A stretch of 64,000 bases of DNA, from the NCBI RefSeq assembly GCF_002355375.1, contig NZ_AP017312.1, positions 1,319,001 to 1,383,000 on the forward strand, read 5' to 3'. The notes beneath the pieces are model-generated. The model ran no database searches. It was not told where the DNA came from and worked only from the letters and a program-made list of their open reading frames with translations. Positions 3,991 to 14,016 of this stretch are shown piece by piece. The DNA comes from Aneurinibacillus soli. Lineage in GTDB: Bacteria > Bacillota > Bacilli > Aneurinibacillales > Aneurinibacillaceae. The position numbers were made by a program, and so were the translations under genes. Within the stretch, counting starts at the first letter, position 1. The number at the start of each line of letters is the position of its first letter.

Positions 3991-4017
3991 TTAGCACTCG
4001 CCTTATCTGAGTGCTAA
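3991..4017 (+). promoter_or_regulatory. CIRCE operator (HrcA binding site)
   Basis: A perfect 9-9-9 inverted repeat, TTAGCACTC-N9-GAGTGCTAA, lies 17 bp upstream of the hrcA start. This is the canonical CIRCE element bound by the HrcA repressor, so the operon that follows should be autorepressed and heat-inducible. I could not assign the promoter boxes around it with confidence. Confidence 0.97.
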
Positions 4018-4033: not shown

Positions 4034-5068
4034 ATGCTTTCGGAACGTCAGAAGTTGATTTTGCACGTCATTATTGACAATTACATTCGTTCCGCTGAAC
4101 CTGTTGGGTCCCGGACGATTTCTAAGCGAGAAGATATTGGCTATAGCTCAGCGACCATTCGCAATGAGATGGCCGATCTGGAAGAGATGGGGTATCTGGA
4201 GCAGCCACATACGTCGGCGGGCCGTATTCCATCGAATAAAGGATATCGTTTTTATGTGGACCAACTTGCTTACATGCCGTCGATGCAGATAGAAGACGCC
4301 ACGCATATTCGCAGGGCGTTTGCTGATCGGTTCTATGAACTTGAGCAGGTAATGAATCAGGCAGCGGCGATTTTGTCGGGTCTGACGAGTTACACATCGA
4401 TTGTCCTTGGACATGAATTGAAAACAACGAAGCTTAAGACGCTACAAATTATCCCGCTTTCATTAGGATCGGCAGTTGCGATCTTAGTCACCGATACCGG
4501 ACGGGTTGAGAACAAAATGATCTCTATTCCGGAAAGCATCCCGATGGAAGAACTAGAACGGGTTGTCAATCTGCTTAATTCGAGACTGCAAGGTGTGTCC
4601 ATGCCAGAGCTGCGCCAGCGGTTGCATACAGAAGTGACGCGCGAGTTGAGCCGCTACTTGCAACGACATGAACAAATTATGGAAGTGCTTGAAGACGCGC
4701 TTGGCACAAAGCCGGAAGAGCAGATTGTACTCAAAGGGACAACCAACATTATGATGCAGCCGGAATTCCGGGATGTGGATAAAGTACGGGATATTCTCGC
4801 GATTTTTGAGCAAAATGATATGATGGTGCGCCTGTTTGATTCGCAACAGAGTGGCATTCAGGTGCGCATTGGAACGGAAAATCAGGAAGAAGCGGTCAGT
4901 GGATGCAGTATTATTACCGCCACCTACCATTTTGACGGCCTGCCAGTTGGCACCATTGGTCTGCTTGGTCCAACACGAATGGAATATGGCCGGGTGATAA
5001 GTATTTTGAGGGAACTGGCGGGGAACCTGACCGACGCGGTTGAAAGGTTTCATAAGCCGGGAACATAG
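4034..5068 (+). CDS. hrcA: Heat-inducible transcription repressor HrcA
   Basis: 344 residues, typical length. The N-terminal winged-helix domain (SERQKLILHVIIDNYI, GSRTIS, SSATIRNEMADLEEMGYL) binds CIRCE, and a GAF-like dimerisation domain follows. It represses class I heat-shock genes and is kept active by chaperonin. It is the first gene of hrcA-chaperonin-grpE-dnaK. A 9-bp perfect hairpin spans its stop codon. Confidence 0.97.
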   Translation: MLSERQKLILHVIIDNYIRSAEPVGSRTISKREDIGYSSATIRNEMADLEEMGYLEQPHTSAGRIPSNKGYRFYVDQLAYMPSMQIEDATHIRRAFADRFYELEQVMNQAAAILSGLTSYTSIVLGHELKTTKLKTLQIIPLSLGSAVAILVTDTGRVENKMISIPESIPMEELERVVNLLNSRLQGVSMPELRQRLHTEVTRELSRYLQRHEQIMEVLEDALGTKPEEQIVLKGTTNIMMQPEFRDVDKVRDILAIFEQNDMMVRLFDSQQSGIQVRIGTENQEEAVSGCSIITATYHFDGLPVGTIGLLGPTRMEYGRVISILRELAGNLTDAVERFHKPGT

Positions 5069-5076
5069 TTCCCGGC
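5056..5076 (+). promoter_or_regulatory. Perfect hairpin across the hrcA stop codon
   Basis: GCCGGGAAC-ATA-GTTCCCGGC forms a 9-bp perfect stem with a 3-base loop, and the hrcA TAG sits inside it. No U-run follows, so it is not a standard terminator. It may be an mRNA processing or stability element separating hrcA from the downstream chaperone genes. Its role is inferred only. Confidence 0.5.
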
Positions 5077-5104: not shown

Positions 5105-6649
5105 ATGAGTTCACATCCGACTGAGGTGGGGGGAGCTGGCGATGAACGGCTCTCTACCCTGCTTCATAATATGCGTGCTGTGCAGGCAGTTGCGAGTTCA
5201 GTAGAGGGGACAATCGGGCCGAAAGGGCTTGATACGATGCTGGTCGGAGAGGACACGGTCATTATTACGAATGACGGGGTTACGATTCTCGAAGAGATGG
5301 AAGTGAAGCACCCGGCAGCTCGTCTGCTGATCGGGCTTGCACGTTCGCAGCAGCAGGAAGTGGGGGATGGTACTACGACAGCGACGCTGCTTGCAGCGGC
5401 ACTGGTGACAGAAGCGGTAGCACAAGTACAGCGTGGTGTGCCTGTAACTCGCATTATTACCGGGATGGAATACGGCATCGCAGAAGCCGTGCGTTTCCTC
5501 GGTGAACAGGCGCAGGCGGTGGCGGATTTTACAGACGAGAGGCTGTATCATATTGCGAGCATTGCGGGCCGGGGGCAAGCAGACATTGCACAGCTCGTTA
5601 TAGAAGGTGCACATGTGATCGGTCTGGATAAAATGCTTGAGCCTGACTTTGTGTTCAGTGAACTTATCACGGCACAAGAAGGGGCCGGAAATGAAGTGCT
5701 TCCAGGTGTATTACTACATCAACATCCGCTTGCTCGTGAAATGCCGACCACCGTAGATGGTGTAAAGCTGTTAATTCTAAATGATGCGTTGGGACCGGAG
5801 GAGATTGATGATGAGGCACTCGGCACGGAGGTCGGGTTTCAGCGTTACCTGGAGTTGAAGGAAGAATACCGGCACAATCTGGAGAAGTTGCTTTCGCTTG
5901 AGGTGAATGTGATCGTGCTTGATCGCAGCTGTGATAGCATGGCGGAAGAATTTTGTCTGGATCATGGCATTCTTGTGCTTCAGCGTGTGCAGAAGTCGGA
6001 GCGGGAGCGGCTCTCGCTTCATACGGGTGCACGCTCTCTAAAGCGCACGGCACTTGGGAAACCTATAAAAGAGCTTGCGCGTTCGCTCGGCCATGCGGAA
6101 AAACTTGTGTACGACGAATCGCTTGAGCAGGTGCGTGTAACAGGTGGAGTCGGTGTTTCGGCAGCGACGATGATTGTTGGAGCCTCTACCCGGGAAGTCG
6201 TAGGCGAGCGCGAGCGTATTGCCCGGGATGCGGCAGCCGCGGTTCAAGCTGCCTTACGGTCGGGTTATTTACCGGGCGGTGGCAGTATGGAACTGTTTGC
6301 ATCCCGCCATCTTGAAGCATGGCGCCACACCATTGAGGGTTTAGAAGCATTCGGAGTAGATGTAGTGGCTTCGGCACTGCGAAGTCCGCTTGCTCAGATG
6401 ATTCGCAATGCTGGCTTCAGTCCACTTGAGAAAGTGGAGCAGATCAAGGCAGTACAGGCGAAAGAAGATAGCGGCAGCATCGGACTTGATTTTGGCACTG
6501 GAGAATGTGCGGATATGCTCGAAGCTGGCGTCGTCGATCCGGCCCTTGTCAAACTGCATGCGCTCAAAACAGCAGGAGAAGTCAGCCGCGCGATCTTGCG
6601 CATACATACGATTATCCGCAAAAAATCTTCGTACAGTGAGGAAGAATAG
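5105..6649 (+). CDS. Archaeal-like (group III) chaperonin, TCP-1/Cpn60 family
   Basis: 514 residues from the ATG at 5105, chosen because AAGGGG lies 7 bp upstream; an upstream in-frame ATG at 5084 has no ribosome binding site. The protein follows the thermosome/CCT pattern rather than Gro[35 protein letters not shown] and the ATP-binding [11 protein letters not shown] central region and a C-terminal SALRSPL...IRNAG segment follow. Bacterial chaperonins of this kind inside dnaK operons have been called group III chaperonins; they fold proteins as closed rings without GroES. The CIRCE upstream suggests HrcA control. The position between hrcA and grpE matches that known context. A separate groEL is not in this window. 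Confidence 0.88.
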
Positions 6650-6660
6650 GAGGAAGTTGC

Positions 6661-7212
6661 GTGACTGAAGAAAATAAACAGACGGAAGAAGTAATAGAAG
6701 AGACAGAGGCAGTCGAGACGGAAGTAGTGGACATGGAAGAAGTGGTAGATGATAATAGCCCTGAAGCACAAATTGCACAGCTTCAAGCTGAAAAAGATGA
6801 GATGTACAACAAATTCCTGCGTACGCAGGCGGATCTCCAAAATTTCCGTACTCGCGTTAACAAGGAAAAAGAACAAATGCTTACGTACTCATCTCAGCGT
6901 GTGATCGAAGCATTGCTCCCGGTTGTGGATAACTTCGAGCGTGCGATGACCGCAAGCCAGGGAAGCGGTGATGCTGAAGCGCTCGCGCAAGGTGTTGAGA
7001 TGGTGTTCCGCCAGCTGCAACAGGTGCTTGAACAAGAAGGTGTCACGACTGTCGCAGGTGTCGGTTCTCCATTTGACCCGAACATGCACCAGGCGGTTAT
7101 GCAGGAAGAAAGCAGCGAGTACGAATCAGGCGTCATCATCGAAGAGTTCCAAAAAGGCTACAAGCTAAAGGACAGAGTCATTCGTCCATCCATGGTTAAG
7201 GTGAGCTCTTAA
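6661..7212 (+). CDS. grpE: Nucleotide exchange factor GrpE
   Basis: 183 residues with a GTG start 6 bp after AGGAGG. The protein has an acidic, disordered N-terminus (about 40 residues), a long coiled coil (IAQLQAEKDEMYNKFLRTQADLQNFRTR) and a C-terminal beta domain (VGSPFDPNMHQAV, GYKLKDRVIRPSMVKVS). It is a dimer that releases ADP from DnaK. It starts 11 bp after the chaperonin gene and is in the same operon. Confidence 0.97.
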   Translation: MTEENKQTEEVIEETEAVETEVVDMEEVVDDNSPEAQIAQLQAEKDEMYNKFLRTQADLQNFRTRVNKEKEQMLTYSSQRVIEALLPVVDNFERAMTASQGSGDAEALAQGVEMVFRQLQQVLEQEGVTTVAGVGSPFDPNMHQAVMQEESSEYESGVIIEEFQKGYKLKDRVIRPSMVKVSS

Positions 7213-7279: not shown

Positions 7280-9112
7280 ATGTCTAAAGTAATCGGGATT
7301 GACCTTGGTACAACTAACTCTTGCGTAGCAGTTATGGAAGGCGGCGAGCCAGTCGTTATTCCAAATCCGGAAGGCAACCGCACGACTCCATCTGTAGTCG
7401 CATTCAAAAACGGCGAGCGCATCGTCGGCGAAGCAGCGAAGCGTCAGGCGATCACAAACCCGGATAACACAGTAAGCTCTATTAAACGTTACATGGGTAC
7501 AAACCATAAAGAAACACTCGAAGGCAAAGACTACACGGCGCAAGAAGTATCGGCAATGATCCTGCAAAAGCTGAAAGCAGACGCAGAAGCATACCTTGGT
7601 GAAACGGTAACACAGGCGGTTATTACGGTTCCAGCATACTTCAACGACAGCCAGCGCCAGGCAACAAAAGATGCGGGTAAAATCGCAGGTCTTGAAGTAC
7701 TGCGTATCGTGAACGAACCGACAGCAGCAGCTCTTGCATATGGTATGGATAAAGAAGAAGATCAGACGATTCTTGTATACGACCTTGGCGGCGGTACATT
7801 CGACGTATCGATCCTTGAGCTCGGCGATGGCTTCTTCGAAGTAAAAGCAACAAGCGGCGATAACAAGCTCGGCGGTGATGATTTTGACCAGGTCGTCATT
7901 GATTACCTCGTGAGCGAATTCAAAAAAGAAAACAGCATCGACCTGTCGGCTGACCGCATGGCGATGCAACGTCTGAAAGATGCAGCGGAGAAAGCGAAGA
8001 AAGACCTCTCCGGTGTTCTGACTACGACAATTTCCCTGCCGTTCATCACAGCAGATGCGACAGGACCAAAACACTTAGAAATAAACTTGACTCGTGCAAA
8101 ATTCGAAGAACTGAGCGCACGCCTTGTTGAGCGCACAATGGAGCCGACTCGCCGCGCTCTCGCAGATGCAGGCATGAGCCCGTCTGATCTGGATAAAGTT
8201 ATCCTTGTCGGTGGTTCTACTCGTATTCCTGCGGTACAAGAAGCGATTAAGAAGTTTACAGGTCAGGAACCGCATAAAGGCGTAAATCCAGACGAAGTGG
8301 TAGCTCTTGGTGCAGCCGTTCAAGCGGGCGTGCTGACTGGCGATGTGAAAGACGTTGTTCTGCTTGACGTAACTCCGCTTTCACTTGGTCTTGAAACAAT
8401 GGGTGGCGTTATGACAAAGCTGATCGAGCGCAACACAACGATTCCGACAAGCAAATCACAAGTGTTCTCAACAGCTGCTGACAACCAGACAGCTGTAGAC
8501 ATCCATGTGCTTCAGGGTGAGCGCCCGATGGCATCTGACAACAAAACACTTGGACGCTTCCAGCTTGGCGATATTCCACCGGCACCACGCGGCATCCCAC
8601 AAATCGAAGTGACATTCGACATTGATGCCAACGGTATCGCAAACGTATCTGCGAAAGACTTAGGTACGGGCAAAGAGCAGAAGATTACAATCACAGCATC
8701 TTCCGGCTTAAGCGATGACGAGATCAACCGCATGGTACAAGAAGCAGAGGAAAATGCGGAAGCAGACAAACAGCGCAAAGAGCAAGTAGAGCTGCGCAAC
8801 GAAGCAGACCAGCTCGTATTCATGACAGAAAAAACAGTTAAAGACCTTGGCGATAAGGTTGAACAGGCTGAGATCGATAAAGCAAACGAAGCGAAAGACA
8901 AGCTGAAAGCCGCACTCGAAGGCAGCGACCTCGATGCGATCCGTACAGCAAAAGATGAACTGCAAGAAATCGTTCAGCAACTTTCCGTTAAGCTGTATGA
9001 GCAAGCGGCTCAACAGGCACAGGCAGCGGAAGCGACAGAAGGCGGTGCTGCGAAAGCAGATGATGTCGTAGACGCAGATTACACGGTTGTAGACGAAAAA
9101 GACAAGAAATAA
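7280..9112 (+). CDS. dnaK: Chaperone protein DnaK (Hsp70)
   Basis: 610 residues. The ATPase domain opens with [17 protein letters not shown] and continues with [16 protein letters not shown] and the adenosine motif [12 protein letters not shown]. The substrate-binding domain begins about residue 370 ([14 protein letters not shown]) and the helical lid ends in [14 protein letters not shown]. It folds client proteins with DnaJ and GrpE. It lacks the roughly 24-residue ATPase insertion of proteobacterial DnaK, as expected for Firmicutes. A terminator follows directly. Confidence 0.99.
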
Positions 9113-9214: not shown

Positions 9215-10351
9215 ATGAGTAAACGCGATTATTATGAGGTGCTCGGCGTCGCGAAATCAGCTTCGGAAGACGAGATAAAAAAAGCGTACCGCAAGCTCGC
9301 CCGCCAGTATCATCCGGACGTAAATAAAGAGCCGGATGCGGTAGAGAAGTTTAAAGAAGTGAAGGAAGCGTATGATGTTGTAAGCGATCCGCAGAAGCGG
9401 GCGCAATACGACCAGTTTGGCCATGCTGCGGGACAGCAAGGCGGTTTTGGCGGTGGCGGGGCTGATTTCGGCGGCTTTGGCGATATTTTTGATATGTTTT
9501 TCGGTGGTGGAGGCGGCGGCGGACGACGTAATCCGAATGCACCACGTCAGGGGAACGATCTGCAGTATACGATGTCGATTAGCTTCAAGGACGCGTATTT
9601 TGGCAAGGAAGACGAGATCGAGATCCCAAAAGAAACAACCTGCTCGAAGTGTGATGGTTCCGGTGCTGAGCCAGGTACAAAAGTTGAAACATGTCCGACA
9701 TGTAACGGTGCCGGTCAGCAGGACGTGGTACAAAATACACCGTTCGGGCGTGTAGTCAACCGTCGTCCATGCCCGTCTTGTAAAGGCAAAGGCAAGTTTG
9801 TGCCGACCAAGTGCAGCAAATGTCAAGGTAGCGGCAAGGAGACGATTCGTCGTAAAATCCGCATCAACATTCCAGCCGGTGTAGATGATGGCATGCAGAT
9901 GCGTATTTCTGGCGAAGGCGAACTCGGGGTAAACGGCGGACCACCGGGAGATTTGTATGTTGTATTCCGCGTGAAGCGTCATGACTTCTTCGAGCGGGAT
10001 GAAGACAACTTGTTCTGCCAGATTCCGATTACATTTGCTCAGGCGGCGCTCGGTGATGAGATCGAGGTGCCGACAATGGAAGGCAAAGTCAAAATGAAAA
10101 TTCCAGCAGGTACCCAGACCGGCAAGACGTTCCGCCTGCGCGGACACGGCATGCCGCGGGTGAACCGAGGTGGAGCAAAAGGGGATCAGCATGTCAAGGT
10201 AACCGTTGTTACACCGACTAAGCTGAGCGACCGTCAGAAGGAATTGCTGCGTGAGTTTGCTGAACTTGGTGGGGAAGAAACACATGCGGCAGGTAGTGCG
10301 GAGAAGACACTGTGGGATCGATTTAAAAATATGATGCGCGGCGATGTGTAG
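9215..10351 (+). CDS. dnaJ: Chaperone protein DnaJ (Hsp40)
   Basis: 378 residues. The J domain has the HPD motif (YHPDVNK, about residues 32-38). A Gly/Phe-rich linker follows, then four CxxCxGxG zinc-finger repeats ([32 protein letters not shown]), and two C-terminal substrate-binding beta domains. It is the DnaK co-chaperone that stimulates ATP hydrolysis. The GTGCGGGAGTGG leader supplies the ribosome binding site. Confidence 0.98.
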
Positions 10352-13744: not shown

Positions 13745-13983
13745 TATCCAAAGTGTGCTAGGAGCGGGAGCGGGTGGGGCAACGGAACGCTTGTACGCGC
13801 TCCCCAGCGGAAGGGGCCAGATGAACGGGCCTTTGCCCACAATACTTCGATGCGAATACATTGTGGGCTTTCTTTTGTGGGCGAGTTTATCTGGTACCTG
13901 AAGCGGACAGTTCCCACTTCTCCGTAAGCGTACCGAAGTGACGAGGTTCCATCCGATTCCGCTCCTCCACCATACTTTGGATA
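13745..13983. repeat. Palindromic intergenic element, copy 3
   Basis: A 239-bp element bounded by TATCCAAAGTGTGCTAGGAG and the inverted CTCCTCCACCATACTTTGG-ATA. Its interior on the plus strand matches the minus strand of copy 1 at the same spacing (GGGCAACGGAACGCTT, TTTGCCCACAA, TTTTGTGGGCGAGTTTA). The outermost bases differ from copies 1 and 2 yet still pair with each other (TATCC/GGATA here, AAC/GTT in copy 1, CG/CG in copy 2). It lies between the mtaB terminator and dctS. Confidence 0.72.
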
Positions 13984-14016
13984 AAACCTCCACCAAGAAA
14001 AACGAGGGGGAATTAA

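Follow-up and report, generated by a model that had tools for sequence, protein, structure and literature searches.

The DNA analysed here, called the window throughout, is a stretch of 64,000 nucleotides from Aneurinibacillus soli, whose genome is a single contig of 4.12 Mb; its first letter is base 1,319,001 of that contig. In the region of interest, lepA and hemN are followed by a CIRCE operator, hrcA, a chaperonin gene, grpE, dnaK, dnaJ, prmA, an RNA methyltransferase gene that we take to be rsmE-like and a radical SAM gene that is presumably mtaB-like. The features of the operon are:

3991..4017, no strand assigned: CIRCE operator, a perfect 9-9-9 inverted repeat upstream of hrcA (0 mismatches)
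4034..5068, + strand: hrcA, heat-inducible repressor, 344 aa (TIGR00331, 355 bits against a cut-off of 197)
5056..5076, + strand: 9-bp perfect hairpin with a 3-nt loop, overlapping the hrcA stop codon and without a U run; candidate mRNA-processing or mRNA-protecting element (-15.8 kcal/mol)
5105..6649, + strand: Group III chaperonin gene, 514 aa (Pfam Cpn60_TCP1, E 1.5e-103; tree, structure and sequence features)
6661..7212, + strand: grpE, 183 aa, beginning 11 bp past the chaperonin stop (PF01025, E 2e-53)
7280..9112, + strand: dnaK (PF00012, E 3.9e-257)
9215..10351, + strand: dnaJ (PF01556, PF00226, PF00684)

A sequence-only reading of this DNA had placed a thermosome-type chaperonin between hrcA and grpE, and the Cpn60_TCP1, TIGR00331 and PF01025 matches given above bear this out. 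For the chaperonin we prefer the start at 5105 over that of the longest open reading frame (5084), because AAGGGGA lies 5 bases upstream of it and the alignment with the closest relative begins at residue 1. The lepA-to-mtaB block as a whole is flanked by an intergenic repeat of about 240 nt (288-535, with an inverted copy at about 13777-13996). Within the genome it matches at least 43 places, with 40 of 121 candidates scored, at 69-80% identity apart from the self-match, and it carries inverted stretches at both ends. It has no Rfam match, as is true of every part of the window, and looks like a miniature mobile element.

The genome contains only two PF00118 genes, the chaperonin described here and GroEL, the latter as part of a separate groESL. 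No NCBIfam model claims the chaperonin, because it passes no cut-off: the thermosome models score about 267-268 bits against 161 bits for the best GroEL model. With TIGR02348 (GroEL) at 138 bits against a cut-off of 582, and with hrcA and grpE rather than groES as its neighbours, the protein does not qualify as GroEL; with TIGR02339 (thermosome) at 268 bits against a cut-off of 671, it does not qualify as an archaeal thermosome. Its closest PDB sequences are 5x9u and 9rwq, an ancestral reconstruction with a chain named ACII, and this closeness suggests that 9rwq may represent a Group III ancestor. An AlphaFold model (pLDDT 88.8, from an alignment of 30 sequences) finds its top Foldseek matches in two crystal structures of Group III, 5x9v and 5x9u (TM 0.88 and 0.91, 44% identity).

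A tree of 50 rows (32 Group III, 13 GroEL and 5 archaeal) placed the chaperonin outside GroEL, in agreement with the sequence-only reading; a position within GroEL did not occur. Each group fell on one side of a branch, with SH-aLRT values of 100 for GroEL, 100 for the archaea and 88 for Group III, the last of these being below the level at which branches were starred and the groups being separated by long branches. The lead of the thermosome models among named families might be taken to mean that this lineage recently gained an archaeal thermosome by horizontal transfer, but we regard such an origin as extremely improbable, as the protein nests within the Bacilli Group III clade, of which order and family form inner clades, and is 91% identical to its nearest relative and 44% to the chaperonin of Carboxydothermus hydrogenoformans (Ch-CPN), as against about 29% to archaeal proteins.

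The Group III definition of An et al. 2017 comprises a shorter alpha6-alpha7 loop, Arg155, Asp373 and features of the lid (PMC5635000). We applied it residue by residue to 5 archaeal rows and to 88 Group III proteins encoded at the fetched loci, having excluded two short chaperonin ORFs (L131, L132) and a remnant (L099). The alpha6-alpha7 loop has 16 residues in 88/88 Group III rows and 22 in 5/5 archaeal rows, making it six residues shorter and devoid of a nucleotide-sensing loop. The lid of the window protein has 41 residues, compared with 45 in the archaeal rows, and the four-residue Group II insertion is absent. Arg155, which in Ch-CPN contacts the gamma-phosphate (PMC5635000), corresponds to Arg156 in the window protein, with Arg in 87 of the 88 Group III rows; Asp373 corresponds to Asp375, with Asp in all 88. 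The gene is also encoded in a dnaK operon, itself a Group III trait; further traits of the group are a non-cooperative ATPase and an assembly of two rings with eight members each. On these observations, the window protein is a canonical Group III (bacterial thermosome-like) chaperonin.

Four residues at the lid tip (Leu237, Phe243, Tyr246 and Phe253) were termed strictly conserved in 2017 (PMC5635000). The window protein keeps three of them as Leu239, Phe245 and Tyr248 and has Tyr255 where Ch-CPN has Phe253. Among the 88 rows the counts are 73 for Leu, 79 for Phe, 52 for Tyr and 74 for the second Phe, so that strict conservation does not extend to this wider set; the Tyr is replaced by Gln in 23 of the 88 proteins. 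Degenerate lids were seen in two proteins from two families (L129 of genome G354 and L130 of genome G328; families f18 and f30 are also flagged), which have just 26 and 28 of the 41 lid residues left and an intact catalytic Asp.

With the window protein as query and a threshold of E 1e-60, we found a chaperonin match in 14 of 15 genomes of the order, in 60 of 398 genomes of the class (including the order's 14) and in 127 of 398 genomes of the phylum. Bacterial Group III chaperonins in dnaK operons had been described in the sequence-only reading as known but rare; they are indeed known, but by these counts they are common among relatives and the word rare is wrong. The nearest named relatives are species of Aneurinibacillus, and A. 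thermoaerophilus also has the gene. HrcA was sought in 80 of the 186 chaperonin-bearing genomes found; it was present in all 80, and in all 80 it lay 26-224 bp from the chaperonin match. The order hrcA-chaperonin-grpE holds in the readable loci of the order (14/14), the rest of the class (46/46) and the phylum (28/30), the next gene recognised after the chaperonin being dnaJ in the two phylum exceptions (L065, L070); in a thirty-first phylum locus (L058) no hrcA is visible because the contig ends. For 86 shared loci, the chaperonin and HrcA trees both place the Bacilli loci, and likewise those of the order, on one side of one branch, and their cophenetic correlation is 0.485, compared with at most 0.122 in 500 permutations. 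The two trees agree, and therefore the chaperonin and hrcA are mostly inherited together.

The single member of the order without a chaperonin match (genome G011) has an intact hrcA, preceded by a CIRCE with one mismatch. Between its hrcA and grpE, at 2785-2907 of locus L099, lies a 41-residue remnant of the chaperonin C-terminus (tblastn, 51% identity, E 4e-8), which by this match and its position we read as the scar of chaperonin gene loss; Pfam misses the piece. A split chaperonin ORF in another genome (L131 of G330) was considered as a pseudogene and rejected. The break carries the peptides LSLIHI and VSYTHLDGYKR, which we take to be translated Illumina adapter, and we read the split as an assembly artefact in a public genome.

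Shuffling gives an expectation of 0.02 sites with 3 or fewer mismatches, compared with the perfect CIRCE at 3991-4017, and a genome-wide scan at the same tolerance returned exactly two sites, both perfect, one before hrcA and one before groES. In chaperonin-bearing loci a perfect CIRCE lies upstream of hrcA in 14/14 cases in the order, 45/46 in the rest of the class (in the exception, L111, the locus starts only about 200 bp before hrcA) and 27/30 in the phylum, where one exception has a single mismatch and two are at contig edges. Among the genomes listed with GroEL found, a CIRCE lies 341-468 bp upstream of 29/29 groEL genes in 26 genomes. With CIRCE at both hrcA and groEL genes, HrcA should thus control both chaperonins. 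In B. subtilis, HrcA represses the dnaK and groE operons and is tied to GroE by feedback (PMC8957991), and a 2018 review (PMC5904260), which cites Techtmann and Robb 2010, states that HrcA controls both chaperonins in Firmicutes. The presumed control of the chaperonin by HrcA is thereby well supported, by the perfect CIRCE and by hrcA in the operon, and is already in print; we predict with good support that the chaperonin gene is a member of an HrcA/CIRCE-controlled dnaK operon.

Consensus scans for a separate chaperonin promoter (13 sites, compared with 10.2 in shuffles) and for a terminator (13, compared with 10.4) hardly rose above the shuffled background. In literature searches that left out most subscription journals, we found no paper linking the term "group III chaperonin" with HrcA and, among the matches listed, none on an Aneurinibacillus chaperonin or thermosome. 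A further CIRCE, away from hrcA and groESL, precedes an htpG (Hsp90)-like ORF in 6/6 sites examined (L146-L151, in G089, G006, G001, G014, G021 and G010), the ORFs having been recognised by eye and, in the case of L148 alone, confirmed by Pfam HSP90. Compared with B. subtilis as described in PMC8957991, these relatives may be unusual in having Hsp90 under HrcA control. The window genome has no third CIRCE.

The chaperonin gene also occupies exactly the junction at which the dnaK-operon mRNA of B. subtilis is cut: cleavage there falls in the hrcA-grpE intergenic region and uncouples the repressor from the chaperones, a site discussed as an RNase Y substrate (PMC11313650), and the mRNA decay reported for B. 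cereus fits this pattern (PMC3446304). The hairpin at 5056-5076 is more stable than any hairpin in 20 shuffled sequences, while the 76-nt region around it is only modestly stable as a whole (z -1.68). Hairpins of -10 kcal/mol or stronger occur between hrcA and the next gene in 4/14 loci of the order, 21/46 other chaperonin-bearing loci of the class and 2/30 other phylum loci, making this type of hairpin weakly conserved among chaperonin-bearing loci; in class genomes without the chaperonin, the hrcA-grpE gap holds one in 12/29 loci, and the thirtieth, L099, has none. Between the chaperonin and grpE such hairpins number 0/14 in the order, 1/46 in the class (the artefact locus L131) and 3/28 in the phylum, but this gap has a median of 8-13 bp and leaves little room for a hairpin, so its comparison with the hrcA gap is uneven. 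By analogy with B. subtilis, the chaperonin probably sits on the grpE-dnaK side of the putative processing site and not with the repressor. Because it follows the hairpin at the 3' end of hrcA and occupies the B. subtilis cleavage junction, it would probably be carried on the stable chaperone mRNA.

A further question is which chaperonin HrcA answers to. GroEL was present in 79/80 chaperonin-bearing genomes, and HrcA in 80/80 genomes of the class without a chaperonin match; at 30 fetched Bacilli loci of the latter kind, hrcA was accompanied by CIRCE in all 30 (perfect in 29, with one mismatch in G011). In an HrcA tree of 118 rows, chaperonin presence changes at least 9 times, 5 of these changes being forced by starred branches. 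Four of 344 HrcA columns differ by more than 0.5 in frequency between Bacilli with and without the chaperonin, and no HrcA residue tracks the chaperonin in independent pairs, of which starred branches offer 5, too few for significance. In one genome (G089), which carries the chaperonin, HrcA and two CIRCE sites, even lax thresholds brought up no match to GroEL or GroES. As a natural case of HrcA without GroEL it was set aside, an assembly gap being the likely reason, because the draft has 360 contigs at 95% completeness and groESL is present in the four family members searched alongside it.

The sequence-only reading had asked whether HrcA is tuned by this chaperonin rather than by GroEL, in which case the Group III chaperonin would fold new HrcA and be titrated by misfolded proteins. 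The invariable adjacency to hrcA (80/80) and the matching HrcA and chaperonin trees are what such a model would lead one to expect, but we found no support for its exclusive form and the evidence leans against it: CIRCE precedes all 29 groEL genes among the genomes listed, Bacilli that lack the chaperonin retain hrcA and CIRCE at 30/30 loci, the G011 remnant lies beside an intact hrcA, no HrcA residue follows chaperonin presence (in 5 pairs, where significance is unreachable), and HrcA of B. subtilis responds to GroE (PMC8957991). We therefore judge it highly unlikely. HrcA might instead answer to both: to GroEL as usual and, as an additional partner in folding or titration, to the Group III chaperonin. 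With both genes under CIRCE, a two-branch feedback would be possible, and the fixed linkage to hrcA fits it; co-regulation explains that linkage equally well, however, and the chaperonin has been lost without visible change in HrcA, which leaves this model unlikely too. It is likewise rather doubtful that one repressor reads two chaperonin machines, with the Group III chaperonin as the second HrcA modulator, encoded in the repressor's own operon yet split off from it by mRNA cleavage at the 3' end of hrcA. The chaperonin may contribute beside GroEL, which itself would modulate HrcA here as it is known to do in B. subtilis.

Taken as a whole, the explanation that we propose, and consider very probably correct, is that the gene for a canonical Group III chaperonin belongs to the structural genes of an HrcA/CIRCE-controlled hrcA-cpn-grpE-dnaK-dnaJ operon, which would be co-induced with groESL, and that it is probably carried on the stable chaperone mRNA. 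The protein would form an ATP-driven folding chamber with a built-in lid and no need of GroES, probably as a homo-oligomer, because it is the sole gene of its kind in the genome. Stress would lift HrcA repression from the dnaK operon and groESL together, raising the levels of both chaperonins in parallel. The Group III chaperonin would increase along with GrpE-DnaK-DnaJ, probably sharing clients with them, and would probably end up on the stable chaperone mRNA, away from the short-lived mRNA of the repressor.

The gene, its position and its HrcA control are already known for the Group III class, of which this gene is an ordinary instance. Added here are the frequency of these genes, their fixed synteny, a scar of loss and the side of the mRNA-processing site on which they probably lie, and the counts correct the view that they are rare in this phylum. 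This one-contig, 4.1-Mb genome combines HrcA with two chaperonins, GroEL and a Group III protein, and has just two CIRCE sites, and the Group III gene has been lost in a relative from its order. It is therefore a system in which to ask directly whether HrcA responds to one or both chaperonins.

Compared with the dnaK operon of B. subtilis, with which it shares its gene order and the CIRCE sites before hrcA and groES (PMC8957991), the window has an extra chaperonin gene between hrcA and grpE. Archaeal (Group II) thermosomes have the built-in lid fold and the catalytic Asp in common with the window chaperonin, but their nucleotide-sensing loop is 6 residues longer, their lid is 4 residues longer, and they occupy a separate branch of the tree. 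The closest known system is the prototype Group III chaperonin, Ch-CPN (5x9u, 5x9v), which has the same fold, the short alpha6-alpha7 loop, the 41-residue lid and the equivalents of Arg155 and Asp373, and whose group has its genes in the dnaK operon with one exception (PMC5635000). The window protein is 44% identical to it and differs in the lid-tip change from Phe253 to Tyr255 and in belonging to a host from the Bacilli-side class of the phylum.
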